From contig JAMPAU010000001.1 in NCBI GenBank assembly GCA_023667045.1, forward strand, positions 633,903 to 697,902: 64,000 bases of DNA, read 5' to 3'. Of the stretch, positions 31,366-63,793 are shown piece after piece (positions within the stretch are counted from its first letter, which is position 1; each line of letters starts with the position of its first letter). The notes below the pieces were generated by a model. It made no database searches. It saw nothing but the letters and a program-made list of their open reading frames with translations, and was not told the DNA's origin. Position numbers and translations under genes: made by a program. The stretch is from Ruminococcus flavefaciens (GTDB lineage: Bacteria > Bacillota > Clostridia > Oscillospirales > Ruminococcaceae).

Positions 31366-31587
31366 TCAAATACAAGTTAATATTCTGCCTTGTTCGAGTA
31401 ATTATAGTTTTTTATAATCCAACACATCTCATTAGGGAATACAGCTCCGGCTGTGGATTGCAGACCTCCCGACATACAGACATTTTTTCTGTGTGCGGAA
31501 GAAGGGAGCGTGAAGCATTCGGGCGTTTACCCACCTGCTTCGTGCGGGTTTTATGCACTATATGACGGCAAGGCGGATTATTTTTTT
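31366..31587 (+). ncRNA. ssrS: 6S RNA
   Basis: About 220 nt. The 5' part TTCTGCCTTGTTCGAG pairs with the 3' part GACGGCAAGGCGGATTA as a closing stem, and the transcript ends in T7 (31581-31587). The inner 3' arm ACCCACCTGCTTCGTGCGGG and the long open central region match Firmicutes 6S RNA. It binds the housekeeping RNA polymerase and adjusts transcription in stationary phase. No convincing ORF overlaps it. Confidence 0.85.
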
Positions 31588-42349: not shown

Positions 42350-43576
42350 TTAAATATCGACGAATCCTCTTATTCCACCGCATTTATTTCTTAAATCGTA
42401 CTCACTGCAAAGATAAGTTTCTTCTTGGAATGTAAAAGGCTGTTCTTCAAGATACTTGTGATAATCGTTTCTGCCATGTACTTTCAGACAGTTTTCCTTG
42501 CATTCACGGTAACACATAATTCCGCCGAAACCGTTTTGTCCGTACGGCGAATAGTCAGAATACTGACAGGTAAAGCACGACTTTATATAATAATCCTGTT
42601 TTATTTTTCCGCATATGTCGGATAAAGCCGTTTCAAAGTCAATGGTATTCTTTTCGCTGTGATAGCTTTTTCCGTCAACGCAAAGACTGAAATCGTCAAC
42701 AATAACGTCATCACAGTAAATCCTCACGCCGTTGCACAAGATAATGCCATGAGGTTTTTTCATATCATGCTTGACAAGATGAAGCGATATATTGATAGTT
42801 CCAGTAATCTCGGCATTGTCGGCTTTGCGGAAAACGTGTACGGGTATTTCCACATCAAGAGAATATCTCCAAAGAATGTAAAAATACGTTGGTATTCTGC
42901 GGGTTGAGTATTTGTCAAGAAGATAACCGTAATACTTTACCACATGGAATTTATTTTCAATATCGTCCGACGGTTCTGTACTTTCGTATTCAATCTCGCT
43001 TATGTCAGTTCCAAGACAGAACTTGAATCCGTCCAGAATAAAGAATCTTTCAGAACCGTCATTTAATATTTCTATGTCAGTATCATGGAACTCGTCCTTA
43101 TAATGAGCTTTCCAGACCTGCATAGCTTTTTTCTCTAACTTAACTAAATATTCTTCTGTATCATCTTCTGGCTTTCTTTCATTGGTAATGCAGAATCCAT
43201 GTTTTTTATAGAACGAAATCGCTCTTGTATTCTTTTCTAAAGCCCATAAGAACTCAATTTCATGGTTATTTATAACATACTCCAATAGTGCCGAACCGAT
43301 TGATTTTCCCTGCAAAACCGGCTCAACAAATAGTTTTTTTATTTCATGTCCGTCAATGCTTATAAAACCTTTTATTACTCCGTCATCATAGACATATGTA
43401 TTATTTGTCATTTTACTATTGCAGAGGTATTTTTCTGCCAGTGCGTTAACTTTAAGTTCACTGAAATAAAACTGGTCATTTTGGAATATCGGGTAAAAGT
43501 TAAGCCTGTAATTAAAGACTTCAATTTCAGCAATTCTTGAAAAATCTTCCGGTTTTGCTTTTCTTATGTAATTCAT
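42350..43576 (-). CDS. GNAT acetyltransferase fused to a Cys-containing domain
   Basis: 408 residues. Residues 1-145 are a GNAT domain: MNYIRKAKPEDFSRIAEIE start, acetyl-CoA loop KLFVEPVLQGKSIGSALLEY, and end NTRAISFYKKHGF. Residues from about 153 form a second domain beginning MQVWKAHYKDEF, with a Cys-rich end (CFTCQYSDYSPYG, MCYRECKENCLK) resembling DUF6304-type proteins, recalled from memory. ATG 43576 has AGAGGGGATA upstream. The join may be a true fusion or loss of a stop between two genes. Targets unknown. Confidence 0.75.
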   Translation of the reverse strand: MNYIRKAKPEDFSRIAEIEVFNYRLNFYPIFQNDQFYFSELKVNALAEKYLCNSKMTNNTYVYDDGVIKGFISIDGHEIKKLFVEPVLQGKSIGSALLEYVINNHEIEFLWALEKNTRAISFYKKHGFCITNERKPEDDTEEYLVKLEKKAMQVWKAHYKDEFHDTDIEILNDGSERFFILDGFKFCLGTDISEIEYESTEPSDDIENKFHVVKYYGYLLDKYSTRRIPTYFYILWRYSLDVEIPVHVFRKADNAEITGTINISLHLVKHDMKKPHGIILCNGVRIYCDDVIVDDFSLCVDGKSYHSEKNTIDFETALSDICGKIKQDYYIKSCFTCQYSDYSPYGQNGFGGIMCYRECKENCLKVHGRNDYHKYLEEQPFTFQEETYLCSEYDLRNKCGGIRGFVDI

Positions 43577-43577
43577 A

Positions 43578-43811
43578 TTATCCCCTCTTTTTGTAAAGCT
43601 TTCTGATGTCCCTGTCATATACGTAATCCGGAGTTACATTATTTTCAATAAAGATATAGCCGTAAATTCTGCACATTATTTCAATAAAATTATCTGTCTC
43701 AGAATCATGAATATTTTCCACTGTTTCAAGCTGTTTTTTCAGTGCGGCGAAACTTACCGTTTTGCCCGATAAAATAGTATCTTTTTTATAGTATTCAATT
43801 TCAAGTAGCAT
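43578..43811 (-). CDS. Small protein upstream of the GNAT gene
   Basis: 77 residues, acidic and soluble, with LSGKTVSFAALKKQLETVEN and the end PDYVYDRDIRKLYKK. AGGAGAAG precedes the ATG at 43811. Its stop lies directly before the GNAT start. No named family; similar short proteins are found in other Clostridia, as I recall. Confidence 0.65.
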   Translation of the reverse strand: MLLEIEYYKKDTILSGKTVSFAALKKQLETVENIHDSETDNFIEIMCRIYGYIFIENNVTPDYVYDRDIRKLYKKRG

Positions 43812-43867: not shown

Positions 43868-43899
43868 AAAAAACCGCTCCCCGAAAGGAACGGTTTTAT
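43868..43899 (-). terminator. Terminator of the AspT-like gene
   Basis: On the - strand AAAACCGTTCC pairs with GGAGCGGTTTT around TTTCGGG, followed by TTTTATTG. It ends the fumarate reductase region. Confidence 0.85.
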
Positions 43900-43904: not shown

Positions 43905-45143
43905 TTACTTGAATACCATAAGCAGAACCTGTGAAACCACAACTACTGCTATGAGTGCTACCGGATATGTAGCTGCATATGCAGAAGCAACGTTTTCTGT
44001 GCCGGCTGTGCTGATGAGAGTACCAAGAGCCGGAGTAGAAGTCATACCGCCTGTGATTGAACCGAGGTTATTGAGCAGGCTGAGTTTGAGAACGTACTTA
44101 GCAAAGATAAATCCTATAATCATCGGAACAAGTGTCATTACTATACCGTACAGGAAGTAAACAGCTTTGAAGTGTTCAACAAAGCTTGCACCTCCAGCAA
44201 CACCAGCACCAATAAGGAAAAGCATAAGTCCGAACTCACGGAAAACTTTAAGTGTGTTTTCTTTAGGTGTAACGGACATTGCACCGAAGTTTCCGAAATG
44301 TCCGAAGATAAGGGAAACAAGCAGACAACCGCCTGTTGTTGTAAGTGAGAAGTTGCCGAACTTGATTGAACCAACAAAGATACCGAGAATTGCAGCAAGT
44401 GCAAAAGGCATGAATCCAAATTCGTCCATTTCAATGAGTTTGCCTGTTTTCTTTTTCTTTTCGCCTGTATCAGCGGCAACGAGTAATTTACGTTCTTCTG
44501 CCATGTTGGCTTTCATGAACTTAGGCACAAGCTGAACGAAAAGAACAACACCGATTACTCCGAAAAGATAAGCAATACCATGTCCAACTGTTACGAGTTC
44601 TTCAAGGGTTTCGCCGTTGGCACGTTCTGCAACTGTTGCCTTTGCGGCTGAGAATGCAGGTGTACTTGTGAGAGAACCGGAAAGAAGACCTACGAGCATT
44701 GAAGCACTTTCTTCCTTTGAATCTCCGGAAATACCTGTATCAATAAGAATACAACCGCCACAGGCAAGTCCGCCGGCAATGATTACAACGAGTGCGAGAA
44801 GTACATACGACTTGAAATTCTTTTTGAAGTTTCCAAAGAAGTTAGGTCCTGCAATGAATCCTACAGACGTTACAAACAATATAAGTCCGAGATTTTCAAC
44901 AACTTTCAGTGCTTTTCCGACGTAAGTTGCGTCGCCTACAAGAAGATTGTCGCCGAGATTGCTGTAGAAGAAACAGCCGTAAAGGAGTGAAACAATGAAT
45001 ACTCCGGCAGTACCGAGCGAAACGCCTTTAATAGTAATTCTGCCGAGAAGATAGCCTACAGTCGTGATTAAGAAGACCGTAAACATGAGAAAAGTTATTT
45101 CCTTGATACCAATGGAAAAACTTCCCGCTGAGATTAATTCCAT
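43905..45143 (-). CDS. AspT/YidE-family transporter, possible succinate exporter
   Basis: 412 residues with about ten helices in two similar halves (GVSLGTAGVFIVSLLYGCFF and later TTTGGCLLVSLIFGHFG; GSLTSTPAFSAAKA and GGMTSTPALGTLI), the internal duplication of the aspartate:alanine exchanger family. The loop between the halves is short, with no TrkA-C domains. Corynebacterium SucE1, a succinate exporter, belongs to this family. It lies 136 bases after frdA in the same direction, so dicarboxylate or succinate export is a reasonable inference. Confidence 0.8.
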   Translation of the reverse strand: MELISAGSFSIGIKEITFLMFTVFLITTVGYLLGRITIKGVSLGTAGVFIVSLLYGCFFYSNLGDNLLVGDATYVGKALKVVENLGLILFVTSVGFIAGPNFFGNFKKNFKSYVLLALVVIIAGGLACGGCILIDTGISGDSKEESASMLVGLLSGSLTSTPAFSAAKATVAERANGETLEELVTVGHGIAYLFGVIGVVLFVQLVPKFMKANMAEERKLLVAADTGEKKKKTGKLIEMDEFGFMPFALAAILGIFVGSIKFGNFSLTTTGGCLLVSLIFGHFGNFGAMSVTPKENTLKVFREFGLMLFLIGAGVAGGASFVEHFKAVYFLYGIVMTLVPMIIGFIFAKYVLKLSLLNNLGSITGGMTSTPALGTLISTAGTENVASAYAATYPVALIAVVVVSQVLLMVFK

Positions 45144-45279
45144 AATCTACAACCTCTTTCTATTAAATTTTCCGTGATACTGCATAAATTTTGTGCAATA
45201 TCACAATATGTATATAACCGCATAAACCGACGAACACAGAAAATGCCCGTCGGTTTTAGTGGATTATATTTTAAGTAAA

Positions 45280-46884
45280 TTACTTAGCTTTTCTTGCATA
45301 GTGCGGGAGAAGCATAGGTGAAACCTTACCTGTATTAATACCGGCATTGTCAAGCTCTGCATTGAACTTGTTAACGTGTTCAAGAGTAAGCTTTTCGGGA
45401 GTTGCAGTTTCCTTAGCCTTTTTAGCTGCATAGATACCTGCATTTCTGCCGAATACAATAACGTCGAGGAGAGAGTTACCCATAAGTCTGTTACGTCCGT
45501 GAATACCGCCAGCAACTTCGCCTGCTGCAAAGAGATTTTCAACATCTGTTGCACATTCGTCAGTAATATCAATACCGCCGTTCTGGTAGTGGAGTGTCGG
45601 GAATACAAGGATAGGCTCTTTGCGTATATCAATGCCGTACTTGCCGAACATTCTCAGCATAGCAGGGATTCTCTTTTCAATAGTTCCCTCACCGTGAATG
45701 AGTTCTATCATAGGAGTATCGAGCCATACAGCCTTACCGAGATTTGTTTCAATGCCCTTGTCACGAGCTGTACACTCACGGATAATTGAAGAAGCTGTTA
45801 CGTCACGTGTTTCAAGGGGATTCATGAAAACTTCGCCGTCGATGTTAACAAGCTTTGCACCGAGTGAACGAACCTTTTCAGTAACCAATGCACCGAAAAT
45901 CTGTTCCGGATAGCCTGTACCTGTCGGGTGATACTGGAGTGTATCAACATCACGGAGTTTTGCACCTGCTCTGTAGCTGAGAATAAGACCGTCAGCTGTT
46001 GCACCATAGTGGTTAGAAGTCGGGAATCCCTGATAGTGCATTCTTCCTGCACCGCCTGTAGCGATAACAACAGTCTTTGCTCTTGCTACCATAAGTTCCT
46101 TAGTTTCCATATTCATGAGGACAGCACCAGCAGCCTTGCCGTTTTCGTCAAGAATAATTTCAACAGCTGCTGTGAAGTCGATAACCGGAATACCTCTGTT
46201 GAGAACTTCATCACGGAGAGTACGCATGATTTCAGCACCGGAATAATCCTTAGCAGCGTGCATTCTCTTTCTTGAAGTACCACCGCCGTGAGTTGTAATC
46301 ATAGTACCGTCAGCTTCCTTATCGAACTCAACGCCGAGTTTGTTGAGCCACTGGATAGCCTCAGGAGCTTTTGTAACGAGCTTTTTAACGAGTTCGGGTT
46401 TAGCGGCAAAGTGTCCGCCACCGAAAGCGTCAACATAGTGGATAGCCGGAGAATCGTTTGGCTTGTCAGCAGCCTGAATACCGCCCTCTGCCATCATTGT
46501 GTTAGCGTCGCCGATACGGAGCTTTGTAACTATCATAGCCTTAACGCCAGCTTCGTCAGCCTCGATTGCACATGAAGAACCAGCACCGCCACCGCCGATG
46601 ATAAGCACGTCTGTGTCATAGTCGGGATTTGATAAATCTATATCAGCAGGGTTGATTCTGCTCTTGCCCTGAAGGAGTTCTGCAAGCTGTGTAGGAACTT
46701 TTCCGCCCTTGTTAGCACCTACTTCAAGAATGCTGAACTGGTCTTCTCTGTAGTCTGGGTGGAATGTTTTCAGAAGAACGTCTTTTTCTTCAGCAGTCAT
46801 TCTTCTTGGTTCGAGCTTTGCGTTGTATTCTCTTTTTTCAGCAACTACCTTTGCAAGCTCATTAAGCTTATCAATTTTATACAT
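45280..46884 (-). CDS. frdA: Soluble fumarate reductase flavoprotein subunit
   Basis: 534 residues. FAD-binding Rossmann DTDVLIIGGGGAGSSCAIEA at about 90-109, after an N-terminal extension of about 88 residues absent from classical FrdA. The family motifs GGGTSRKRMHAAKDYSG, LQYHPTGTGYPEQIFGALVT, the capping-domain region and GGIHGRNRLMGNSLLDVIVF are present. It would reduce fumarate to succinate. L-aspartate oxidase shares the fold, but the adjacent Fe-S subunit and fumarase favour Frd. No membrane subunit is encoded nearby. Confidence 0.9.
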   Translation of the reverse strand: MYKIDKLNELAKVVAEKREYNAKLEPRRMTAEEKDVLLKTFHPDYREDQFSILEVGANKGGKVPTQLAELLQGKSRINPADIDLSNPDYDTDVLIIGGGGAGSSCAIEADEAGVKAMIVTKLRIGDANTMMAEGGIQAADKPNDSPAIHYVDAFGGGHFAAKPELVKKLVTKAPEAIQWLNKLGVEFDKEADGTMITTHGGGTSRKRMHAAKDYSGAEIMRTLRDEVLNRGIPVIDFTAAVEIILDENGKAAGAVLMNMETKELMVARAKTVVIATGGAGRMHYQGFPTSNHYGATADGLILSYRAGAKLRDVDTLQYHPTGTGYPEQIFGALVTEKVRSLGAKLVNIDGEVFMNPLETRDVTASSIIRECTARDKGIETNLGKAVWLDTPMIELIHGEGTIEKRIPAMLRMFGKYGIDIRKEPILVFPTLHYQNGGIDITDECATDVENLFAAGEVAGGIHGRNRLMGNSLLDVIVFGRNAGIYAAKKAKETATPEKLTLEHVNKFNAELDNAGINTGKVSPMLLPHYARKAK

Positions 46885-46896
46885 TTTCGCTCCTCC

Positions 46897-47580
46897 TTAC
46901 TTTTCAATCTCACGATTATTATAAAGGTTCTTTACTTCCTCGACATTATCAACTGACTTAGCCATAAGTTCAGCGATTTTTTCGTCGTAGATACCTTCAT
47001 TGATTTCGTTTACACGGTCAGCGAGATGTCCGCATTCGGGAGCGATGTACTTACCGTTGAGTCTTCTTGCGAGCATAGCAACCTGTGGGTGAGAGATTCC
47101 GGCAGGACAGCGTGAAGAACATACACCGCACATTACGCAGTCAAAAGATTCTTCTGCACACTTGTCAAATTCACCTCTCTGAGCATAAGCTATGTACTGC
47201 ATTGTGTTGAGTTCCTGAGTACAAGCCTTTGTGCAGGCATTACAGCCGATACAGCTGTAGATTTCAGGATATAACTGCATCATAATCTGAGCGTTGGGCT
47301 TGATTTCCTCGATATTGTAAATCTGCTTTACAAGCGGGAAGAAAGGCAGTGTAGCAACATACATACCCTCCTGTACTTCTGTCTGACAAGCAAGACAGGC
47401 ATGAAGTGGCTGTTCGCCCTTAATTCTGTAGATAGTAGCACAAGCACCGCAGAAACCGTTACGGCAACCACAGCCTCTTACGAGTTCATAGCCGGCATAT
47501 TCCATAGCCGTCATTATGGTAAGTCCTGCCGGCACCTGATACTTCTTGCCGAACAGGTAAACGTTTAACATATTTTCCAT
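46897..47580 (-). CDS. frdB: Fumarate reductase iron-sulfur subunit
   Basis: 227 residues. N-terminal 2Fe-2S ferredoxin domain with CGCRNGFCGACATIYR and a later CLAC, then two 4Fe-4S motifs CIGCNACTKACTQ and CVMCGVCSSRCPAG. The C-terminal CCG domain found in methanogen TfrB is missing; here HdrB is a separate gene. ATG 47580 is chosen because GGAG lies 8 bases upstream; TTG 47586 is in frame. It lies 12 bases before frdA. It would pass electrons from the Hdr module to FrdA. Confidence 0.88.
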   Translation of the reverse strand: MENMLNVYLFGKKYQVPAGLTIMTAMEYAGYELVRGCGCRNGFCGACATIYRIKGEQPLHACLACQTEVQEGMYVATLPFFPLVKQIYNIEEIKPNAQIMMQLYPEIYSCIGCNACTKACTQELNTMQYIAYAQRGEFDKCAEESFDCVMCGVCSSRCPAGISHPQVAMLARRLNGKYIAPECGHLADRVNEINEGIYDEKIAELMAKSVDNVEEVKNLYNNREIEK

Positions 47581-47595
47581 GTTCAATACTCCTTA

Positions 47596-48441
47596 TTAAT
47601 ATTCGTCAGGCAGTTCGTCGAGCTGGTCAAAGCGGAAAACAGGACCGTCTTTGCAGACATACTTGTCGCCGATATTACATCTTCCGCACTTGCCGACAGC
47701 ACACTTCATGCGAAGTTCCATAGTTGTGTAAACCTGAGTTTCGGTGAATCCGAGTTCTTTAAGACCTGCAAGTGTGAACTTAATCATAATCGGAGGTCCG
47801 CAGATGAGAACTGTCTTGCTGAGTGAGGGATTAAGCTCCTTTACATAGTTCGGAACAAAACCTACATGACCGTCCCAGCCTTCCTGTTCTCTGTCGATAG
47901 TGAGGTTTACGGTTATGCCGTCGTCCTGCATCCACTCGTTGATGATTTCCTGATAGTCAACGAGGTCGTCCTTTGAACGTGAGCCGTATACAATCTGTAC
48001 ATCGCCGTAGTTTGCACGGTTGTCACGTACATAGTTTATAACCGAGCGGAGCGGTGCAAGACCGATACCGCCGGCGATAAAGAGTAAATCCTTACCCTTG
48101 AGTTCTGTTTCAACAGGGAAATTATTACCGTAAGGACCTCTGAGAGTAACCTGCTGACCTACTTCCATAGCATGAAGCCATGAAGTGAGACAACCACACT
48201 TCTTTATGCTAAATTCCATAAATTCCTTGTTTGTCGGTGAAGATGTTATGGAGAACATACCCTCGCCTACTCCGGGAATGGAAAGCATTGCACACTGACC
48301 GGGCATATGTTCAAAAACCTTACCGCTCACTGTACCGTCCGGCTGTATAGCGTTTACTCTGAAAGTCTTTACATCAGGAGTGTCCTGTCTTATATCGGTA
48401 ACAACGCCGATATAAGGGATTAATGTATCATTAGCGTTCAT
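47596..48441 (-). CDS. FlxA-like FAD/NAD(P)H-binding subunit
   Basis: 281 residues, ferredoxin-reductase fold as in AsrB, HydG-type and FlxA proteins. MPGQCAMLSIPGVGEGMFSI (FAD), LLFIAGGIGLAPLRSVINYV (pyridine nucleotide), and a C-terminal 2Fe-2S site MRMKCAVGKCGRCNIG-like (CAVGKCGRCNIGDKYVC). ATG 48441 overlaps the flxB stop (ATGA) with GGAGGT upstream; the frame extends 22 codons further inside flxB. It would oxidise NAD(P)H and feed electrons to FlxBCD. Confidence 0.88.
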   Translation of the reverse strand: MNANDTLIPYIGVVTDIRQDTPDVKTFRVNAIQPDGTVSGKVFEHMPGQCAMLSIPGVGEGMFSITSSPTNKEFMEFSIKKCGCLTSWLHAMEVGQQVTLRGPYGNNFPVETELKGKDLLFIAGGIGLAPLRSVINYVRDNRANYGDVQIVYGSRSKDDLVDYQEIINEWMQDDGITVNLTIDREQEGWDGHVGFVPNYVKELNPSLSKTVLICGPPIMIKFTLAGLKELGFTETQVYTTMELRMKCAVGKCGRCNIGDKYVCKDGPVFRFDQLDELPDEY

Positions 48442-49460
48442 CACTTTACCTCCAATGCTTTCATTACCTTGACGATATTCATTGAGATAGGACACTTTGA
48501 CATACAACGTCCACAGCCTACACAGCCGAATTCGCCGTTATTGTTTGAAGGGAAATATACAAGCTTGTGCATGAATCTCTGACGGAAACGCTCAAGCTGA
48601 GAGTTACGGATATTGCCGTGAGCCATTTTTGTGAAATCCGAGTACATACATGAATCCCAGCATCTGAAACGCTTGATTCCGTGACCGGTGTTGAAGTCCT
48701 TTATATCATAGCACTGGCAGGTCGGGCATACGAAAGTACAAGTACCGCAACCCAGACAGCTTTCAGAGAGTTCAGCCCACTTTTCAGACTTGAAGTGTTC
48801 CATGAGCTTATCACCGCCGAATGCCTCAGTTGAGAGATTAGCAAGCGGAAGTCTGCCCATAATTTCCTTAGTCTTGGCTTTTGTCTCGTCGAGTTTTGCA
48901 GTGTCGCCGTCTTCGAGGAGACCGGAAACAGAATCAACAAAAGTCTGACCCTTTTCAGTATTAGCCTTGAAGAAAATGCTCTCGCCGTCAGACCAACAAG
49001 CAACATCTCCCTCCGGTTCAGTGGGGTCGATTCCGAAAGTCTGACAGAAACAGGTTTCAGCAGGCTTTGTGCAAGCCATAGTCACAATAGTGCCGTGGTC
49101 ACGGCGGTTCTTGTAGTAGCTGTCAACCGGTTCGCTGAGGAAAACTTTATCAAGGATAGTGAAACTTCTTGCATCACAGGCACGCACGCCGAAAATAACA
49201 AAATCTTCTGATTCTTCACGCACGTCAATAACCTCAATCTTCTTGCCTTCCATTTTGAAGTCAGCGAGATTTTCAGTCTGTGGAAAGAAAAAGTCCTTAG
49301 CACTGCGGAGTGTGTTGAGGTTGTTGCTAAGTTTCATGCCGTCTTCGTACTTCTTGTACTCGGAAGCACCGTCTGCACGGTCAGCCGGAATGTAAAGAGT
49401 CTGCTTTTCAGCGACAGCCTTAAACAGCTCGTCAAGTTTTTCGATAGAAATTTTAAGCAT
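48441..49460 (-). CDS. FlxB/AsrA-like 4Fe-4S subunit
   Basis: 339 residues. N-terminal domain with FGVRACDARSFTILDKVF and MACTKPAETCFCQTFGIDP, then two 4Fe-4S motifs CLGCGTCTFVCPTCQCYD and CVGCGRCMSKCPISMN. This matches subunits of anaerobic sulfite reductase (AsrA) and the FlxB/FlxC proteins of the Flx-Hdr complex. Its ATG overlaps the flxC stop. It is one of two paralogues in tandem. Confidence 0.85.
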   Translation of the reverse strand: MLKISIEKLDELFKAVAEKQTLYIPADRADGASEYKKYEDGMKLSNNLNTLRSAKDFFFPQTENLADFKMEGKKIEVIDVREESEDFVIFGVRACDARSFTILDKVFLSEPVDSYYKNRRDHGTIVTMACTKPAETCFCQTFGIDPTEPEGDVACWSDGESIFFKANTEKGQTFVDSVSGLLEDGDTAKLDETKAKTKEIMGRLPLANLSTEAFGGDKLMEHFKSEKWAELSESCLGCGTCTFVCPTCQCYDIKDFNTGHGIKRFRCWDSCMYSDFTKMAHGNIRNSQLERFRQRFMHKLVYFPSNNNGEFGCVGCGRCMSKCPISMNIVKVMKALEVK

Positions 49461-50431
49461 TACTCAACACCCCTTTCATGAACTATGCTTGCTTCACAGT
49501 CTTCCTTAGTATAATCATTGAGAGGAGCTCTTGAAGTAGTGTCAGCTCCTGCCTGATATTCGCCGTAAAGAGAGTTTATATCCTTGATAAACTTTCTGTT
49601 GAGGAGATGAAGCGGAATATTCTGAGGACAGACTCTTGAACATTCACCGCAGTCGGTACATCTTCCGGCAACATGGAAAGCACGGATAATATGGAACATA
49701 TTTTCCTCAAAGCTGTCTGCTGCTGCTTTATTCTGCACTCCAGAATTTGGATTATCAAATACACAATTTTCGCAGGTACAAGCCGGACAAACGTTACGGC
49801 AAGCATTACAACGGATACACTTTGAGAGTTCACCTCTCCAGAAGTCATAACGCTCCTGAGAAGTCATATTTTCGAGCTTTTCAACCATATCAAAACGGTC
49901 AGAAGTAATAATTTCGCCGTCTTCGCCTATGAGTTCGTCATAAGTAACATGCTTTTTGCTCTTACAGCTAAGACACTTGTTGCTCATAGCCTCAGCAACA
50001 GGCATGGTCTCGTCGCCGTAGATAGTGCTTATTTTAAGAGTTTCGCCGTCTCTCTCAACGCCTGTTATGCCAGTGATACCCTTAGCCTTGATTTTTTCAG
50101 CGTCGAGCTTGCCGTTGCTCTGAATACCTACCACATAGATATTGTCACGGTTAACTCTGTGTTCTTTGGTAAGCTGATTAAGGCTGTATGTATCGCAAGG
50201 TTTGAGGAAAGCAAGGATTTTGCCTTCTTTTTTGCTTTCCTTTACGAGATACTTTGAAACGTTGGCAGACGTGAAATCGTCATATACGAAATCAGCGTCA
50301 ATTTCCTCTGGGCTTTCAAAAATCGCCGGAGTGATGTCGTAAGCAAATTCGCCCTTTTTCCAGCCGATAACACGTGTAACTGTGCCGTCGGCGAGAAGCT
50401 GTTTTGCCTTGCTTATCATTGCTTCCTGCAT
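49460..50431 (-). CDS. FlxC/AsrA-like 4Fe-4S subunit
   Basis: 323 residues, paralogous to the previous gene: ILAFLKPCDTYSLNQLTKEH, then CIRCNACRNVCPACTCENC and CTDCGECSRVCPQNIP. The N-terminal half resembles the FrhB/HdrA2-linked flavin or cluster domain. It relays electrons between FlxA and FlxD/HdrA by analogy to FlxABCD. The frame starts inside the end of flxD. Confidence 0.85.
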   Translation of the reverse strand: MQEAMISKAKQLLADGTVTRVIGWKKGEFAYDITPAIFESPEEIDADFVYDDFTSANVSKYLVKESKKEGKILAFLKPCDTYSLNQLTKEHRVNRDNIYVVGIQSNGKLDAEKIKAKGITGITGVERDGETLKISTIYGDETMPVAEAMSNKCLSCKSKKHVTYDELIGEDGEIITSDRFDMVEKLENMTSQERYDFWRGELSKCIRCNACRNVCPACTCENCVFDNPNSGVQNKAAADSFEENMFHIIRAFHVAGRCTDCGECSRVCPQNIPLHLLNRKFIKDINSLYGEYQAGADTTSRAPLNDYTKEDCEASIVHERGVE

Positions 50432-50862
50432 CGTAAATCCTCCAATCTCCTGTTAGGACCAAGTTTTTTCACAGCTTCTGTGAACTCGTTCATAGTAGCG
50501 GCGAATTTAGCACCCTCAGCGGCAGAAACCCACTCTACTCTTGTACGGTCACGTTCAATACCAAGAAAATCAAGCATACTGAAAAGAAGTGTCATACGTC
50601 TTCTTGTAAAGTAGTTGCCCGATGTATAGTGACAGTCGCCGGGGTGACAGCCACAGAGAATAACTCCGTCTGCACCTCTCTGAAATGCTCTGAGAATGAA
50701 CATCGGATTAACACGGCATGAGCATGGTACTCTGATTATTTTTACGTTTGTCGGATAATTCAGTCTGTTTGTGCCTGAGAGGTCAGCACCTGCATATGAA
50801 CACCAGTTACAGCAGAATGCGACAATCAACGGCTGAAATTCTTTGTTATCATTTACTTGCAT
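50416..50862 (-). CDS. FlxD/MvhD-like iron-sulfur subunit
   Basis: 148 residues. VAFCCNWCSYAGADLSG, VPCSCRVNP and LCGCHPGDCHYTSGN are the hallmark cysteines of MvhD/FlpD/FlxD, the 2Fe-2S protein that connects an electron donor module to HdrA. Overlaps hdrA by 10 bases and flxC by 16, so it is tightly coupled to both. Confidence 0.92.
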   Translation of the reverse strand: MQVNDNKEFQPLIVAFCCNWCSYAGADLSGTNRLNYPTNVKIIRVPCSCRVNPMFILRAFQRGADGVILCGCHPGDCHYTSGNYFTRRRMTLLFSMLDFLGIERDRTRVEWVSAAEGAKFAATMNEFTEAVKKLGPNRRLEDLRCRKQ

Positions 50863-52859
50863 ATTGCGTCTACCTCCGCCATAATCTGACTGTTAGAGAA
50901 TCCGTTCAAATCCATTGCACCAGACGGACAAGCAACTGTACAAGCACCACAGCCCTGACATACAGCAGGGTTAACGCTTGCAACACGTCTCATTACTGTC
51001 GTGCGGTATGGTGTTCTGAATTCCTTGTCCTGATAAGTAATAGCACCATAAGGACAAACCTTTTCACACGCTGAACAGCCGTTACACATAAGTTCGTTTG
51101 AATGAGCAACACATGGGTTGCAGGTGATACTGTCTTTCACAAGAAGACCGATAGCCTTAGCAGCAGCGGCACTTGCCTGAGCAACAGTTTCCGGAATATC
51201 CTTTGGTCCTTGACAAGCACCGGAAAGGAAGATACCGGCGGTAGCACTTTCAACAGGACGGAGCTTTGCATGAGCCTCTGTGAAGAAGTCATTAGTATCC
51301 ATCTGTGTTGTAAGCATTGTAGCAAGCGGACGTGCAGTCTTGTCCGGTTCGATAGCTGTAGCGAGTACAACCAAATCAGCGTCAATGTGGAGCTGTTCAT
51401 TTGAAAGCAGGTCTGAAGCCTGTACGTCTATAGTGCCGTCAGCCTTAGGTGTAACCTTGCCGACCATGCCCTTTATATAATGAACGTTGTACTGCTCAAC
51501 GGCACGTCTGTAGAACTCATCAAAGTTCTTGCCGGGGGTACGTACATCTATGTAGAATACATAAACCTCTGTATCCGGATATTTTTCACGGATAAGCATA
51601 GCGTGCTTAGCTGTGTACATACAGCAAATTTTTGAACAATACGGCTTGCCCTTGCTGTCGTCACATCTTGAACCTACACACTGTACAAAAACAATCTTGT
51701 GCGGGTGTGTCTTATCGGACGGTCTGAGAAGTGTACCGCCGTTAGGACCAGCAGCGTTCATAAGTCTTTCGAGTTCAAGAGATGTTACAACGTCCGGACA
51801 CTGATTATATGCAAATTCATCATACTTGTCAAGCTTAATCGGGTTAAAGCCAGTAGCAACAACGATTGCACCGTATTTCTGTTCAATATACTCGTCCTGC
51901 TGATGATAGTTGATAGCACCAACTGTACAAGCCTGTGAACACTTACCGCAGACTTTTTCGTTTACATCGCCCTTGCGGAGTTTCAGACAGTAATTAGCGT
52001 CGATTGTAGCAACCTTAGGTACAGCCTGTGCAAAAGGAATATAAATAGCACCTCTGTTATTGAGACCGAGATTGAAAGCGTTAGGAACTTTCTGCATAGG
52101 ACAAACTTCTGTACAAGCACCGCAACCAGTACACTTTGTTTCGTCAACAAAACGTCTCTTTTTCTTTATTGTAGCTGTAAAGTTACCTACAAATCCCTTT
52201 ACCGCACTTACTTCACTGTATGAGTGAATAGTAATTTTTTCGTTCTGTGATGCCTCAACCATTTTAGGTGTGAGAATACAAGCGGCACAGTCGAGGGTCG
52301 GAAAAGTCTTATCAATCTGAGCCATTTTACCGCCGATAGTAGCTTCTTTTTCTACTATATCAACTTCAAATCCAGCCTCTGCAATATCGAGTGCTGTCTG
52401 AATGCCGGCGATACCGCCACCGATAACCAACGCTCTTTTTGCAACAGGGCTTTCGCCTGCTGTAAGAGGTGTGTTAAGGTGAACCTTAGCGATAGCAGCT
52501 TTGCCGAGAATAATAGCCTTTTCGGTAGCTGTGGCAATATCTTTGTGAATCCATGAACACTGCTCACGGATATTAGCGATTTCAACGAGATACGGGTTGA
52601 GACCTACAGAGGCGGCTGCCTTTCTGAAAGTATTTTCATGCATACGTGGTGAACATGAACATACAACAATACCTGTAAGACCGTATTCTTTTATAGAATC
52701 CTTTATGAGATTCTGACCTGCCTCAGAACACATATACTGATATTCCTTAGAGATAACCACTCCGTCCTCATGACTGAGAGCTTCTGCAACTGCCTTTACG
52801 TCAACAGTTGCGGCAATATTAGTACCGCAGTGACAGACAAATACACCAATTCTCTGCAT
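50853..52859 (-). CDS. hdrA: Heterodisulfide reductase subunit A (HdrA)
   Basis: 668 residues, complete. N-terminal FVCHCGTNIAATVDV and CSCSPRMHENTFRKAA, FAD-binding ALVIGGGIAGIQTALDIAEA, 4Fe-4S pairs CTGCGACTEVCPM and CGKCSQACTVGA, the C-terminal FAD segment GIFLSGACQGPKDIPETVAQ, and two ferredoxin-like motifs CNGCSACEKVCPYG and CQGCGACTVACPSG. In known systems the HdrA flavin bifurcates electrons to ferredoxin and to HdrBC. AGGAGGAG precedes the ATG. Confidence 0.95.
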   Translation of the reverse strand: MQRIGVFVCHCGTNIAATVDVKAVAEALSHEDGVVISKEYQYMCSEAGQNLIKDSIKEYGLTGIVVCSCSPRMHENTFRKAAASVGLNPYLVEIANIREQCSWIHKDIATATEKAIILGKAAIAKVHLNTPLTAGESPVAKRALVIGGGIAGIQTALDIAEAGFEVDIVEKEATIGGKMAQIDKTFPTLDCAACILTPKMVEASQNEKITIHSYSEVSAVKGFVGNFTATIKKKRRFVDETKCTGCGACTEVCPMQKVPNAFNLGLNNRGAIYIPFAQAVPKVATIDANYCLKLRKGDVNEKVCGKCSQACTVGAINYHQQDEYIEQKYGAIVVATGFNPIKLDKYDEFAYNQCPDVVTSLELERLMNAAGPNGGTLLRPSDKTHPHKIVFVQCVGSRCDDSKGKPYCSKICCMYTAKHAMLIREKYPDTEVYVFYIDVRTPGKNFDEFYRRAVEQYNVHYIKGMVGKVTPKADGTIDVQASDLLSNEQLHIDADLVVLATAIEPDKTARPLATMLTTQMDTNDFFTEAHAKLRPVESATAGIFLSGACQGPKDIPETVAQASAAAAKAIGLLVKDSITCNPCVAHSNELMCNGCSACEKVCPYGAITYQDKEFRTPYRTTVMRRVASVNPAVCQGCGACTVACPSGAMDLNGFSNSQIMAEVDAICK

Positions 52860-52874
52860 ATTATTATCTCCTCC

Positions 52875-53258
52875 TTACTTAGTATATTTTCTGAATGCCG
52901 TAACGATTGCCTGCTGTGGCAAATCCTCGTCGAGCATTTCGGGAATGTCATCGGCAATAAGGTGGTTATTGCCCTGTTTTCTTATAGCGGCAAGACGTAC
53001 TGCCTCAACAACCTTAGCCGGCTCAACTCCTCTGGGACATCTTTCAACACAGGCAAAGCAGGTAAGGCACTTATAGATTGACTTTGAGTTCATGAGGGCT
53101 TCAATGTTGCCTTTTTCCACCATATATACAAACTGGTGCGGGTGGTATTCCATCTCATCATATGACGGACAAGTGCCGGAGCATTTACCGCAACGCATAC
53201 ATTTAAGGACATTCACACCGCTTGAACGTATAACCTGTTCTTTGAGATTATTATTCAT
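52875..53258 (-). CDS. hdrC: Heterodisulfide reductase subunit C (HdrC)
   Basis: 127 residues with two 4Fe-4S motifs, CMRCGKCSGTCPS and CLTCFACVERCPRG, and the SYDEMEYHPHQFVYMVEKG segment between them, as in HdrC. It passes electrons from HdrA to HdrB. The ATG overlaps the hdrB stop. Confidence 0.93.
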   Translation of the reverse strand: MNNNLKEQVIRSSGVNVLKCMRCGKCSGTCPSYDEMEYHPHQFVYMVEKGNIEALMNSKSIYKCLTCFACVERCPRGVEPAKVVEAVRLAAIRKQGNNHLIADDIPEMLDEDLPQQAIVTAFRKYTK

Positions 53259-54048
53259 TGTCAGCCTCCTTTACTCCGAGAGCCTCGGCAAGAAGTTCAG
53301 TAAAGTAATAAACCGGAAGTTCAGAACCGGAGTTCTTTTTCAGATTGTACATACAGAGAGGACAGGCAGTAATAACCATATCTGCTCCCTGCTCCTGTGC
53401 AGAATCCATAACCTTAGCACTTCTCTTTTCAGCCTGTGCCTTGTCTTCCATAGTTATGTAACCGCCACAGCACTCGTTACGCTGTGAATAGATAACAGGA
53501 GTACCGCCGATAGCCTTTATGAAGTCTTCCATAATTGTAGGATTTTCGGGGTCGTCCATAGCAAGAGCCTTGCTCGGACGGAGAAGAAGACAGCCATAAT
53601 ATGCTGCTATTTTCTTGCCCTTGAAAGAATTTACAACCTTTTTCTTGAGATTGTCAAAACCTACTACATCACGGAGCATTTCAAGATAGTGATAAACTGT
53701 AGCCTCGCCTGTATAAGCCTCATCAAGCTGGAGATAGTTGTTTACCTTTGCAGCCATTTCCTCATCATTGGAAATATCATAGTTAGTCTGCTTGATAACA
53801 TTATGACAGGCGGAACAGACTGTGATAAGTGGCTGACCTGCTTCCTTAGCGGCGTTGAGAGTTCTTACCGCAGAAAGCTTTGTAGCTATTTCATCTTTAG
53901 CTGTAGTGTAAGCACCGCCACAGCACTGCCAGTTTTCCGGCTCTACAAGAGAGATACCGAGAGCCTCGGCAGAAGACCTTGCATAAGCGTCAAGGTCTTT
54001 AGCTTTGGTGCGGAGCGTACAGCCTGGATAATACATGAAAGTATTCAT
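53251..54048 (-). CDS. hdrB: Heterodisulfide reductase subunit B (HdrB)
   Basis: 265 residues with two complete CCG domains: YYPGCTLRTKAKDLDAYARS ... WQCCGG ... CSACHNV, and YYGCLLLRPSKALAM ... NECCGGY ... CPLCMYNL. In methanogens these bind noncubane 4Fe-4S clusters that reduce CoM-S-S-CoB. This host should lack that substrate, so HdrB probably hands electrons to FrdB or to another disulfide. It lies 24 bases downstream of fumC. Confidence 0.93.
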   Translation of the reverse strand: MNTFMYYPGCTLRTKAKDLDAYARSSAEALGISLVEPENWQCCGGAYTTAKDEIATKLSAVRTLNAAKEAGQPLITVCSACHNVIKQTNYDISNDEEMAAKVNNYLQLDEAYTGEATVYHYLEMLRDVVGFDNLKKKVVNSFKGKKIAAYYGCLLLRPSKALAMDDPENPTIMEDFIKAIGGTPVIYSQRNECCGGYITMEDKAQAEKRSAKVMDSAQEQGADMVITACPLCMYNLKKNSGSELPVYYFTELLAEALGVKEADNE

Positions 54049-54072
54049 TAGTACGTTTCCTTTCTGTTAATT

Positions 54073-55449
54073 TTATGCCATTTCTTCGGGGTGGAATACC
54101 TCGTCAAATCGTTCTGCTGTCAGGAAACCGAGTTCAACACAGGCTTCTTTAAGGGAAATATTATCCTTGAAAGCCTTCTTTGCGGTCTTGGCGGCGTTCT
54201 CATAACCAATATACGGATTAAGAGCAGTGACGAGCATAAGAGAATTGTGAAGATTATGGTGCATTTTTTCCTTGTTTGCCTTAATACCTACTGCACAGTT
54301 CTTGTTGAATGAGATAATAGATTCAGCAAGCAGACGTGCAGACTGGAGGAAATTATAAGCACATACAGGCATAAATACATTGAGTTCAAAGTTGCCCTGA
54401 GACGCAGCCATGCCTACTGCAACGTCGTTGCCCATTACCTGTACGGCTACCATAGTAACCTGTTCGCACTGAGTGGGGTTAACCTTGCCGGGCATGATTG
54501 ATGAACCGGGTTCATTTTCGGGGATAAAGATTTCACCGAGACCGTCACGTGGACCAGATGCAAGCCATCTCACATCATTTGCAATCTTCATCATATCAGC
54601 AGCGAGAGCCTTTAAAGCACCGTGTGCAAATACGATTTCGTCCTTTGATGTAAGAGAATGGAACTTATTAGGTGCAGTAACGAATTTCTTTCCAGAAATC
54701 TCGCTTATAGCCTCAGCAGCCTTTTCAGCAAATCCGGCAGGTGCGTTAAGACCTGTACCTACTGCTGTACCGCCGAGAGCAAGCTCACGGAGTTCTTCAA
54801 CAGCAGAGAGGAGCATTTTCTTGTCCTTTTCAAGAGAACTTCTCCAACCGCTTATCTCCTGTGAGAACTTAATAGGTGTAGCGTCCTGAAGATGAGTACG
54901 ACCGCTTTTTACAATGCCCTCGTTTTCTTCTTCAAGTCTCTTGAAAGTTTCAATCAGTGTATCAACAGCCGGAATAACCTTGTCTTCAACGGCAATAACA
55001 GCGGCAATATGCATAGCAGTCGGGAAAGTATCATTTGAGGACTGGCTCATATTTATGTCGTCGTTAGGGTGAAGAAGTTTAGCTCCGGCAATTTCGTTGC
55101 CTCTGTTTGCTATAACCTCGTTGGCATTCATATTTGACTGTGTACCGCTTCCGGTCTGCCAAACTACGAGGGGGAAATGTTCATTGAGAGAACCGCTCAT
55201 TACCTCATCGCACGCCTGTGAGATAGCAGAAAGTTTTTCATCAGTCATTCTTTCCGGCTTTACGGCATGGTTAGCGATAGCTGCGGCTTTTTTTAAAATT
55301 CCGAAAGCATGGGTAATTTCTCTCGGCATAGTTTCTATACCTACGCCTATAAGGAAATTTTCATGACTTCTTTCGGTCTGGGCTGCCCAGTACTTGTCAG
55401 CTGGTACTTTTACCTCGCCCATAGAATCGTGTTCGATACGGTATTCCAT
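54073..55449 (-). CDS. fumC: Fumarate hydratase class II
   Basis: 458 residues, oxygen-tolerant type. EYRIEHDSMGEVKVPADKYW start, TGSGTQSNMNANEVIANRG, SSNDTFPTAMHIAA, and the family signature GSSIMPGKVNPTQ. It forms fumarate from malate, directly feeding the fumarate reductase encoded downstream. ATG 55449 is chosen with GGGAGTGG 8 bases upstream. Aspartase shares these motifs but its neighbours support fumarase. First gene of the large - strand operon. Confidence 0.93.
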   Translation of the reverse strand: MEYRIEHDSMGEVKVPADKYWAAQTERSHENFLIGVGIETMPREITHAFGILKKAAAIANHAVKPERMTDEKLSAISQACDEVMSGSLNEHFPLVVWQTGSGTQSNMNANEVIANRGNEIAGAKLLHPNDDINMSQSSNDTFPTAMHIAAVIAVEDKVIPAVDTLIETFKRLEEENEGIVKSGRTHLQDATPIKFSQEISGWRSSLEKDKKMLLSAVEELRELALGGTAVGTGLNAPAGFAEKAAEAISEISGKKFVTAPNKFHSLTSKDEIVFAHGALKALAADMMKIANDVRWLASGPRDGLGEIFIPENEPGSSIMPGKVNPTQCEQVTMVAVQVMGNDVAVGMAASQGNFELNVFMPVCAYNFLQSARLLAESIISFNKNCAVGIKANKEKMHHNLHNSLMLVTALNPYIGYENAAKTAKKAFKDNISLKEACVELGFLTAERFDEVFHPEEMA

Positions 55450-55517
55450 TAAAATATCCACTCCCGAAATTTTTTTATAAATAAAAACGTTTCATACGTA
55501 TTTTTCATACAATATTA

Positions 55518-55546
55518 AGTATAACAGCAAGTGACGATAAATTCAA
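55518..55546 (-). promoter_or_regulatory. Promoter of the fumC-hdr-flx-frd operon
   Basis: On the - strand TTGAAT (complement 55541-55546), 17-nt spacer, TATACT (complement 55518-55523). Predicted start near 55511, giving a leader of about 60 nt. Confidence 0.7.
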
Positions 55547-55576: not shown

Positions 55577-55594
55577 TTGATATAATATTAACAA
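55577..55594. promoter_or_regulatory. Candidate Rex-binding site
   Basis: TTGATATAATATTAACAA matches the Rex consensus (TTGTTAA, 4-nt gap, TTAACAA) at 12 of 14 fixed positions. It lies about 30 bases upstream of the operon -35, and rex itself is encoded at 56364-57020. Confidence 0.45.
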
Positions 55595-55864: not shown

Positions 55865-56377
55865 TTACCGGAGTACTTCCTTGAAATATTGTTCCAGTGG
55901 CAGAGTAGCACCGGAGTGTATGCCGTCCGGAACTATCCGGAAATCCTTGTTTCTGAGTAAATTCTCTGTAAAGTCGTGATAGTCTATTACATCGTCCCGA
56001 CCGCCTATTATTGTGCTTGTTCCCGATATATCCATATTGGCTATCTCTGAAAAAAGAATTATATAAGGGCGGATATTTCCTTCAAAGTTAAGTCTCGGCA
56101 GAGTAACAAAAGGCATAAGGCAGGGATTTACCAGGATAACGGGAACACTAAGCCGTGCTGAAAGTACTGCACCGAAAAATCCGCCAAGACTTGTGCCTAC
56201 AATACAGCCTATATTATTTTCAGTAATCTGCCGTCCGAGCGTGTCAAGAATATCTTCCGGCAACATAGAATCATAATCAAGCTGAGGTGAAATAACTTCA
56301 TAGCCTAATTTTCTGAGAACGGAGCAGGCAGAATTTTCAGCACTGCCAGTATATCCGTGAATATTAAGAATCTTCAT
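55865..56377 (-). CDS. YqiA/YcfP-like alpha/beta hydrolase
   Basis: 170 residues. MKILNIHGYTGSAENSACSV start, nucleophile elbow GTSLGGFFGAVL (Ser about 74), Asp in IIGGRDDVIDYHDF and His in DGIHSGATL complete a plausible triad of small bacterial esterases of the YqiA/UPF0227 type. ATG 56377 has AAGGAGCAGG upstream and overlaps the end of rex. Substrate unknown. Confidence 0.85.
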   Translation of the reverse strand: MKILNIHGYTGSAENSACSVLRKLGYEVISPQLDYDSMLPEDILDTLGRQITENNIGCIVGTSLGGFFGAVLSARLSVPVILVNPCLMPFVTLPRLNFEGNIRPYIILFSEIANMDISGTSTIIGGRDDVIDYHDFTENLLRNKDFRIVPDGIHSGATLPLEQYFKEVLR

Positions 56378-57020
56378 TTTCTTCCTGCTCCTTTTCTGCA
56401 TTTATAGCATATGAAAGAATTGTCAGACTGTCGCCTAAATGGACATTTTCAACCACCACGTTTTCATGGTTTATGCTCAAATCGCAGTGGGTGAAATTCC
56501 AGAAAGCATGAATACCATAGCTGATAAGCCTTTCAGCCTCTTTTTCGGCGACCTCCTGAGGAACGCACAGCACGACGGCAACGGGTTTATGTTCCATGCA
56601 GAACTGTTCAAGCTCCGAAATATCTTTCACAGTAATTTTTCCGAGCCGTCTGCCGATAATATCGGGGTTTACATCAAAAGCTCCGATAAGCTCAAAGCCT
56701 TTATTGCGGAAATCAATATGTCTTGCAATAGCCTTTCCGAGATTGCCTGCTCCCATAAGTATCATGGGATTTTTTTTGTCTAGACCAAGAATAATGCCAA
56801 TCTGACGGCGTAACTCGCTTACATTGTAGCCGTATCCCTGCTGACCGAACTCGCCAAAACAGTTAAAGTCCTGACGTATCTGCGAGGCGGTAAGCCCCAT
56901 TTTTTCGGCAAGTTCTCTTGAGGAAATGCGGACATAGCCGTTTTCCTCAAGTTCGCCTAAAAAACGATAGTAACGTGGAAGTCGCCGTATAACTGAGTTT
57001 GATATTGCATTTTTTGACAT
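56364..57020 (-). CDS. rex: Redox-sensing transcriptional repressor Rex
   Basis: 218 residues. N-terminal winged helix (LPRYYRFLGELEENGYVRIS, LTASQIRQDFNCFGEFGQQG) and C-terminal Rossmann domain ILMGAGNLGKAIARHIDF binding NAD(H), with the C-terminal domain-swap helix. Rex represses fermentation and electron-transfer genes when NADH/NAD+ is low. Lying next to the Hdr/Flx/Frd operon and icd, it is a natural candidate for their control. ATG 57020 is chosen; a longer frame to 57047 lacks family similarity. Confidence 0.95.
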   Translation of the reverse strand: MSKNAISNSVIRRLPRYYRFLGELEENGYVRISSRELAEKMGLTASQIRQDFNCFGEFGQQGYGYNVSELRRQIGIILGLDKKNPMILMGAGNLGKAIARHIDFRNKGFELIGAFDVNPDIIGRRLGKITVKDISELEQFCMEHKPVAVVLCVPQEVAEKEAERLISYGIHAFWNFTHCDLSINHENVVVENVHLGDSLTILSYAINAEKEQEENEDS

Positions 57021-57054
57021 TTTATCATGCCTTTCATATACGTACAAGAACTGA

Positions 57055-58266
57055 TTACATTAATTTGTCAAGTCTTGTCTTTATTTCGTCAAGGAAAGTC
57101 TTTGAGTCAACCTTTTTCTTGTTTTCAAGTTTTGAGATAAGATAGAGGTCGCCTGTCATCACGCCGTCTTCAATTGTCTGAATTGTAGCCTTTTCGAGCT
57201 TGTCAGCAAATTCACATAGTTCCGGAGTATTGTCAAGTTCTCCTCTTTTTCTTAAAGCACCACTCCATGCAAAGATAGTAGCTACAGAGTTTGTTGAAGT
57301 TTCCTCGCCTTTGAGGTACTTGTAGTAGTGTCTCTGTACAGTACCGTGAGCTGCTTCGTATTCATAGATGCCGTCGGGAGAAACGAGTACTGAAGTCATC
57401 ATGGCAAGACTGCCGTAAGCTGTGGAAACCATATCTGACATAACGTCGCCGTCATAGTTTTTGCAAGCCCAGATGTAACCGCCGTTTGAACGGATAACTC
57501 TTGCTACAGCGTCGTCTATGAGAGTGTAGAAATATTCAATTCCTGCCTGCTCATACTTTTCCTTATATTCATTATCGTAAATTTCCTGGAAAATATCCTT
57601 GAATCTGTGGTCATACTTCTTGGAAATTGTGTCCTTAGTTGCAAACCATACGTCTTGTTTGAGGTCGAGACCGTAATTCAGACAGGTTCTTGCAAAGCTT
57701 GCTATGCTGTCGTCGAGGTTGTGAAGTCCCTGAATGATACCGTCGCACTTTGAGAAGTCGTGGATAAGTTCACGTGTTTCGTTGCCGTTTTCGTCAGTAA
57801 CAACGAGTTCAGCCTTGCTGCCCTTGTTAACACGGAGTTCAGAGTTTTTGTAGACATCGCCGTATGCATGACGTGCGATAGTGATAGGCTTAGTCCATGT
57901 GGGAATATAAGGCTCAATTCCCTTTACGATAATAGGAGTACGGAAAACAGTACCGTCAAGAGCTGCACGGATAGTACCGTTAGGAGACTTCCACATCTGA
58001 GTGAGGTTGTACTCCGGCATTCTTGCGGCATTCGGTGTGATAGTTGCACACTTTACAGCAACGCCGTATTTCTTTGTAGCCTCAGCGGAATCCATAGTTA
58101 CCTTGTCTTTGGTAGCCTCTCTGTGTTCGAGACCTAAATCATAGTATTCTGTGTTGAGGTCTACATATGGTTCAAGGAGAGTTTCCTTAATCCACTTCCA
58201 GAGGATTCGTGTCATTTCGTCGCCGTCCATTTCGACAAGCGGAGTTTTCATAGTAATTTTAGCCAT
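57055..58266 (-). CDS. icd: NADP-dependent isocitrate dehydrogenase (type II)
   Basis: 403 residues, the homodimeric eukaryote-like form: [20 protein letters not shown] start, NITPNAAR-like [37 protein letters not shown], and the metal site [15 protein letters not shown]. Oxidatively decarboxylates isocitrate to 2-oxoglutarate for glutamate synthesis. GGAGGT lies before the ATG. With aconitase at 61775-63712 it provides the oxidative TCA branch opposite to the reductive succinate branch. Confidence 0.96.
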
Positions 58267-63712: not shown

Positions 63713-63743
63713 TTTAATCATTCCTTTCAGTATTACTGATTTT

Positions 63744-63772
63744 ATTGTACAACAAATTATGCACTTTGTCAA
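63744..63772 (-). promoter_or_regulatory. Promoter of the aconitase gene
   Basis: On the - strand TTGACA (complement 63767-63772), 17-nt spacer, TACAAT (complement 63744-63749). Predicted leader about 25 nt. Confidence 0.8.
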
Positions 63773-63793
63773 GATTTAAACAAACTAAAATAA

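Follow-up and report, generated by a model that had tools for sequence, protein, structure and literature searches.

What does an operon that joins fumarase, Flx-Hdr and fumarate reductase genes do in a gut ruminococcus? Gut ruminococci form succinate, a precursor of propionate, as a major product, and the reduction of fumarate in quinone-free clostridia is biochemically unsettled. We analysed a 64,000-nucleotide stretch of Ruminococcus flavefaciens DNA (the window; GenBank assembly GCA_023667045.1, contig JAMPAU010000001.1, positions 633,903 to 697,902), which carries the gene order fumC-hdrB-hdrC-hdrA-flxD-flxC-flxB-flxA-frdB-frdA. The host genome is 3.64 Mb in 112 contigs, 99.99% complete and 4.84% contaminated. 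The operon is probably an NADH-responsive succinate operon with Rex-type control that encodes a soluble electron-bifurcating NADH:fumarate, ferredoxin reductase. This reading is favoured by the co-occurrence of HdrA with FrdA, by three gene arrangements of the same pairing, by the lack of UbiA, by a single CCG-domain protein, and by a full-length HdrA with its ferredoxin clusters. The original prediction, made from this DNA alone, was likewise of a cytosolic NADH:fumarate reductase that drives ferredoxin reduction. It is still the best-supported reading, but the idea was already in print, as excerpts of PMC7282089 show.

The operon and its gene products

All ten genes were confirmed in the order given, head-to-tail on the minus strand. 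As originally predicted, they are separated by overlaps or by gaps of fewer than 30 bases. The spacings are +24 for fumC-hdrB (the largest), −8 for hdrB-hdrC, +15 for hdrC-hdrA, −10 for hdrA-flxD, −16 for flxD-flxC, −1 for flxC-flxB (TAATG), −1 for flxB-flxA (TGATG), +15 for flxA-frdB and +12 for frdB-frdA. The first gene, fumC (54073..55449), encodes a class II fumarase, which converts malate to fumarate (NCBIfam TIGR00979, 703.8 bits, cut-off 664.75, scanned as 54073-55461). Its start is more likely the ATG at 55449 than the GTG at 55461.

The FlxABCD-HdrABC set is complete, with all seven subunits present and carrying their cofactor motifs. HdrB (53251..54048) has two CCG domains (PF02754 in two stretches; PDB HdrB 8rvv_B, E 8.9e-36). 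HdrC (52875..53258) has two [4Fe-4S] motifs (TIGR03290, 71.4 bits, under the cut-off of 160). HdrA (50853..52859) is an FAD protein with two C-terminal [4Fe-4S] motifs and is the likely site of bifurcation; it scores 793 bits against a cut-off of 1100 with NF040770, a model that takes in a fused MvhD. FlxD (50416..50862) belongs to the MvhD/FlpD family (PF02662, E 1.8e-55). The [4Fe-4S] dicluster protein encoded at 49460..50431 (PF13183, E 3.3e-9) we take to be FlxC, from its position and size in Flx operons. FlxB (48441..49460) is a sulfhydrogenase-beta/AsrA-like Fe-S protein (PF17179, E 1.2e-30; PDB 9nez_B, E 1.4e-44), and FlxA (47596..48441) is an FAD/NAD(P)-binding electron-transfer subunit and the likely point of NADH entry (PF00175, PF10418, PF00970). 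FrdB (46897..47580) carries a [2Fe-2S] and two four-Cys [4Fe-4S] motifs (PF13510, PF12838). FrdA (45280..46884) is a fumarate reductase flavoprotein with a 90-amino-acid N-terminal extension and without the covalent-FAD histidine (PF00890, E 3e-73).

The operon has an eleventh gene. Position 43905, one limit of the stretch given in the original prediction, is the end of this gene, which that prediction did not name. It encodes a 412-amino-acid permease of the Asp-Al_Ex/AspT/YidE family (43905..45143, minus strand; PF06826, E 5.9e-57; TIGR01625, 134 bits, cut-off 71.95), a possible succinate exporter. The permease gene lies 136 bases 3′ of frdA and is followed by a terminator-like hairpin (43870..43897, minus strand) of 12 pairs with a T-rich tail. 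The space from frdA to the permease gene holds a stable hairpin that lacks a clear U run (45195..45275, minus strand; −26.9 kcal/mol, z −4.86), so the permease may be partly separate. At the other end there is one extended −10 promoter candidate (55518-55546). A single promoter is plausible, but the claim of one promoter had been put too firmly, as the 31 promoter-like sites of the region do not clearly exceed the number in shuffled sequence (mean 23.8, sd 4.7).

Conservation of the gene order

The original prediction proposed a search for co-occurrence of the ten-gene order. The full order is present in 62 of 80 genome_contigs loci, which are the best 80 of 579 confirmed relatives. Another 17 agree up to the contig end, which in some of them leaves no more than the final one or two genes to compare; one locus has the other nine genes without fumC. 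Within the family, FrdA neighbourhoods were taken in from 23 of the 25 genomes with FrdA other than that of the window (G034 and G182 left out). Of these neighbourhoods, 18 are full, four end with the contig, and one lacks fumC beside hdrB. A permease gene lies within 600 bases of frdA in 53/68 and 9/22 loci with enough sequence. The FrdA nearest to that of the window (96%) is from a Ruminococcus sp. metagenome-assembled genome. R. flavefaciens FD-1 has the full operon, with an FrdA at 87%. An operon of the window type is also found on a contig labelled uncultured Treponema sp., by transfer or mis-binning.

Across 197 genomes of the family, FrdA (E ≤ 1e-100) is present in 26 and HdrA (E ≤ 1e-60, at most six candidates scored per genome) in 23. 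All 23 are among the 26, and 171 genomes have neither. The three genomes with FrdA and no HdrA are two in which the contig ends inside the operon (G072 and G086) and one that is 70% complete with a fragment of FrdA (G034). The overlap has p ~4e-27 if genomes are independent; they are related, hence the value is a guide only.

Cofactor sites and the proposed mechanism

HdrA aligns with the solved bifurcating HdrA (PDB 5odc_A, E 5.6e-198) over residues 3-665, including both C-terminal [4Fe-4S] motifs. The cysteines of these clusters are unbroken in all 71 genome_contigs loci with a match that covers them. The twelve ligand cysteines of FrdB are likewise conserved in all relatives with a covering match; in classical SdhB the third center is a [3Fe-4S] cluster. 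FrdA has an asparagine at the position of the covalent-FAD histidine, as aligned to the histidine of SdhA/FrdA, in 116/116 relatives. Its FAD is thus predicted to be non-covalent. Soluble enzymes with non-covalent FAD are described, in the relevant part of PMC9557727, as catalyzing fumarate reduction only, and the asparagine is as expected for one-way fumarate reduction. Residues H319, E336, R339, R360, H432 and R466, considered as candidates in relation to the catalytic His and Arg of fumarate reductase flavoproteins, are kept in all 116. R360 corresponds to E. coli Arg287 by hand alignment, a placement that HMMER did not make.

In the proposed mechanism, FumC would convert malate to fumarate. 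FlxA would accept a hydride, presumably from NADH rather than NADPH, and FlxB, FlxC and FlxD would relay the electrons to the flavin of HdrA. This flavin would split each pair. One electron would pass to ferredoxin through the C-terminal clusters of HdrA. The other would run through HdrC and HdrB, in presumed contact with FrdB, and on to the non-covalent FAD of FrdA, where fumarate would be reduced to succinate. The proteins would act as a complex, with electrons flowing in this direction, and the permease would probably export the succinate. The net reaction would be 2 NADH + fumarate + Fd(ox) → 2 NAD+ + succinate + Fd(red), where Fd is ferredoxin. The calculated free energy is about −33 to −49 kJ per fumarate, with assumed ferredoxin potentials. 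By textbook stoichiometry, bifurcation without a pump would raise the calculated ATP yield from 3.0 to 3.33 per glucose, with carbon moved from succinate to acetate.

We put forward a more specific form of this mechanism tentatively, as a real possibility rather than the expected outcome. A single soluble nine-protein complex would use the non-cubane clusters of HdrB as a wire to FrdB and not as a thiol site, and fumarate would be the high-potential acceptor at which HdrA bifurcation ends. In ruminococci that have neither Rnf nor Ech, the complex would act as a Rex-controlled pump, driven by fumarate, that moves electrons from NADH into ferredoxin and H2, giving a higher yield of acetate and ATP with no membrane step. 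If this is true, 0.67 succinate, 1.33 acetate and 2 H2 per glucose are predicted, as against 1:1:1.

Cell context

No match to the UbiA prenyltransferase family (PF01040) was found in the genome, with 14/14 controls positive. The Sdh_cyt anchor family (PF01127) gave no match either, with 7/14 controls positive; other anchor families were not searched for. The operon itself holds no membrane anchor gene, which agrees with the original prediction that Frd has none. A membrane quinol:fumarate reductase was rejected, as neither UbiA nor Sdh_cyt had a match. A second FrdA-like gene was also rejected as a competing enzyme for fumarate, since it adjoins nadC and resembles NadB (437.4 bits, slightly short of the cut-off of 452.75). 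The genome has one HdrA and one CCG-domain protein, which is HdrB.

RnfC is not over its cut-off in this genome (best E 4.4e-10, at most eight candidates scored per genome), and Complex1_49kDa, the Ech-type large subunit, is absent. Ferredoxin would therefore have no known ion pump to feed. The energy conservation that the original prediction invoked cannot, in this genome, run through Rnf or an Ech-type hydrogenase. A second genome of the genus, G135, likewise has no RnfC over the cut-off, whereas G019 has one. The genome holds two Fe_hyd_lg_C genes, one for a monomeric B1 [FeFe] hydrogenase over its cut-off and one under every cut-off. With just these two genes, an NADH-linked [FeFe] hydrogenase was rejected as the usual outlet for NADH. 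Reduced ferredoxin most likely leaves as H2, through what would be the monomeric [FeFe] hydrogenase. A GTP-dependent phosphoenolpyruvate carboxykinase was found (PF00821, E 1e-159), and PF01293 is absent from the genome. The GTP-dependent enzyme, the route named for Pseudoclostridium thermosuccinogenes, counts in favour of bifurcation to fumarate.

Rex and regulation

One open reading frame upstream of fumC is rex (56364..57047, minus strand), a gene for an NADH-sensing repressor (NF003990, 280.7 bits, cut-off 233). An operator-like palindrome (55577..55594, minus strand) lies 145 nucleotides before the fumC ATG, with two mismatches to TTGTTAAN4TTAACAA, the Clostridiaceae consensus as given in an excerpt of PMC9600882. 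The gene and the site both count in favour of an NADH-responsive operon, and Rex control is predicted from them. The form TTGT[TG]AAN4ATATCA[AC] is present, with a variable spacer, in 20/32 upstream regions of the window and its closest relatives. Seven more have the weaker form TTGTTAAN4-5TCACTA, and five have neither. The first form has 21 matches in total in 1.37 Mb, both strands, a contrast that is partly circular because the motif was derived from the same data. Most loci beyond the closest relatives have no good Rex site; a score of at least 12 of 14 was reached in 20/75 loci, against 22/3000 shuffles. A second Rex-like site with two mismatches (63766-63783) lies at the start of an aconitase gene (61775-63772), and positions 57055-58266 hold a gene for NADP-isocitrate dehydrogenase.

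Alternative explanations

Several findings weigh against bifurcation to fumarate. HdrB, as judged from its alignment, retains every ligand of a thiol/disulfide site. All ten cysteines of its two non-cubane clusters are present, and they are kept in 63/63 genome_contigs loci with hdrB and in 17/17 others. RnfC is not enriched with FrdA, since a match at E 1e-80 or better is found in 21/26 genomes with FrdA and RnfC is over its cut-off in 165/197 overall; a special link between Frd and Rnf is not supported. Over the whole window, the Rex consensus has 8 matches, no more than the 11.06 expected. Enzymology of this complex or of any relative was not found in open-licence full texts (subscription papers and preprints lay outside this scope), and within them the original statement that no biochemical description is known stands. 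Outside the family, FrdBA is also found without nearby Hdr or Flx. FrdA is present in 40/398 genomes of the phylum, and 36 of the 40 places were taken in (G540, G576, G437 and G520 left out). One has a contig that ends beside frdA (L144, excluded), which leaves 35 informative loci. In 18 of these, neither Hdr nor Flx is nearby, although for three of the 18 only 1.4 to 4 kb upstream is visible. The original prediction had named unlinked frd genes as evidence against it. They are found outside the family, and in none of the 23 neighbourhoods within it, contig ends aside. Hdr is thus not required for FrdBA as such.

The ligands of HdrB raise a different route. At HdrB, Flx-Hdr would reduce a disulfide, either a small one or that of a protein, and the resulting thiol would then drive FrdBA directly or through another protein. 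Models for such a relay are the methanogen thiol:fumarate reductase and the DsrC link of Desulfovibrio vulgaris Flx-Hdr; an interaction of DsrC with FlxABCD-HdrABC is cited in a part of PMC10504309. The ten of ten ligands speak for the relay, as does TfrA being the closest NCBIfam model of FrdA (354 bits, 718 needed). FrdB, however, has no CCG domain in a family scan, unlike TfrB, and HdrB is the only CCG-domain protein of the genome, so that a separate TfrB-like thiol oxidase is missing; no search for dsrC was made. We regard a thiol relay as unlikely. Because HdrB retains all its cluster ligands, direct electron transfer from HdrB to FrdB is something that we infer.

The missing ion pumps raise another possibility, in which Flx-Hdr simply wires NADH to Frd and both electrons go to fumarate. 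Without Rnf or an Ech-type subunit, reduced ferredoxin would be of little direct benefit. Cultures of R. flavefaciens form about as much succinate as acetate, in agreement with one NADH per fumarate, or with bifurcation together with Rnf; nothing on this fermentation stoichiometry was found in the open-licence texts. In contrast, HdrA is full length, and its FAD motif and ferredoxin-side clusters would be superfluous for a plain wire. Bifurcation also gives the calculated gain in ATP even without a pump. A plain NADH:fumarate reductase is quite unlikely in our judgement.

FrdBA outside the family

The neighbours of FrdBA in the loci without Hdr are class I fumarase with malic enzyme, pyruvate carboxylase, 2-oxoacid:ferredoxin oxidoreductase, multihaem NapC/NirT-type cytochromes or a cytochrome b561-like protein. 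All other 17 informative loci have hdrB and hdrC, which stand alone in four of them. In eight, hdrA is joined by a gene for another HdrA protein of larger size (1076 amino acids in the one scanned). Complete Flx-Hdr is found as frdBA-hdrBCA-flxDCBA in four loci and as hdrCBA-flxDCBA-frdBA in one (L151). The same FrdBA pair is thus joined to complete Flx-Hdr in three gene orders, which fall at three separate positions in the FrdA tree. This was a quick tree of 54 rows (L128 left out), and its root is uncertain, being placed on a NadB whose branch is very long. The window type forms one clade (support 85, not strong), and the presence or absence of Hdr requires three changes. Judged by these contexts and the tree, FrdBA is a soluble module that can be carried from one setting to another. 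Its most frequent Hdr partner is HdrBC, and coupling to the full Flx-Hdr set is seen repeatedly.

This modularity would also suit mere co-regulation, with Flx-Hdr using another acceptor, Frd using another donor, and the operon shared since both serve succinate fermentation. Relatives of FrdBA that adjoin class I fumarase and malic enzyme, multihaem cytochromes or a cytochrome b561-like anchor speak for it. Against it, HdrA occurs only in genomes with FrdA among the 197 of the family, and the pairing of Flx-Hdr with FrdBA repeats in three gene orders. We consider co-regulation alone very improbable.

In one other family (f56), seven loci (L121, L122, L124, L125, L129, L131 and L132) have a second HdrA-like protein of 1053-1098 amino acids encoded between hdrA and flxD. 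Their FrdBA operons also hold 2-oxoacid:ferredoxin oxidoreductase genes, and the large protein of L121, the one scanned, consists of two HdrA-like units. In L134 and L138, the neighbours of FrdBA are an Fe-S protein that binds FMN and two genes that match no family, and L134 also has NapC/NirT-type multihaem cytochromes. This is perhaps another electron route to soluble FrdBA.

Relation to known systems

The operon type and the idea of bifurcation are already published for P. thermosuccinogenes and are not new here. Excerpts of PMC7282089 describe a 'succinate operon' with fumarate hydratase, Flx-Hdr, fumarate reductase and a possible succinate transporter, and assume that fumarate reduction is linked to ferredoxin reduction, following a 2019 preprint by Koendjbiharie and van Kranenburg. 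In them, the operon is up about 4-fold under CO2 limitation, and addition of H2 is reported to nearly abolish succinate. By the described order of locus tags, not by sequence, the two operons share the fumarase, the seven flx-hdr genes, the frd pair and the transporter; the carboxykinase route is also common to both. P. thermosuccinogenes is described there as having Rnf and Ech, whereas this genome has neither RnfC over the cut-off nor the Ech-type large subunit, a difference of the host and not of the operon. The operon is a further example of the published type, with a proposed mechanism that is most likely bifurcating. With the comparative data, what had been a guess published for one thermophile can be tested in a culturable species, R. 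flavefaciens FD-1. If the complex bifurcates, fumarate would join the acceptors of HdrA-type bifurcation, and the yields of succinate, H2 and ATP would be coupled in gut bacteria that degrade fibre.

All seven gene families are shared with D. vulgaris FlxABCD-HdrABC, a complex tied to ethanol metabolism and DsrC, whereas here FrdBA and fumC are built into the operon. Methanogen TfrAB is also soluble, with FrdB-type and HdrB-type modules working together. TfrB is one chain with FrdB-like and CCG modules, whereas FrdB and HdrB are separate genes here, FrdA falls well short of the TfrA cut-off, and there are HdrA and Flx in addition. HdrABC-MvhAGD and related bifurcating heterodisulfide reductases share HdrA, HdrB, HdrC and an MvhD-like subunit; the donor side here is FlxABC in place of a hydrogenase or formate dehydrogenase, and the acceptor side is FrdBA. 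Quinone-linked complex II differs in its anchor (no PF01127 here), its quinone (no PF01040) and the histidine that FrdA replaces with asparagine. A cluster of the reductive tricarboxylic acid cycle in tubeworm symbionts and Thioflavicoccus has flxABCD-hdrABC interspersed with tfrAB. Direct electron delivery is suggested there, in a proposed complex of Flx-Hdr with TfrAB and KorABCD (parts of PMC6315080). That cluster, as described, is from Gammaproteobacteria, serves carbon fixation, and has korABCD, with TfrAB instead of this FrdBA.

Other features of the window

No tRNAs were found in the window. A 6S RNA lies at 31379-31583 on the plus strand (Rfam RF00013, 67.7 bits). Downstream of the operon terminator, a gene on the minus strand (42350-43618) encodes a protein with a GNAT domain and DUF6304.

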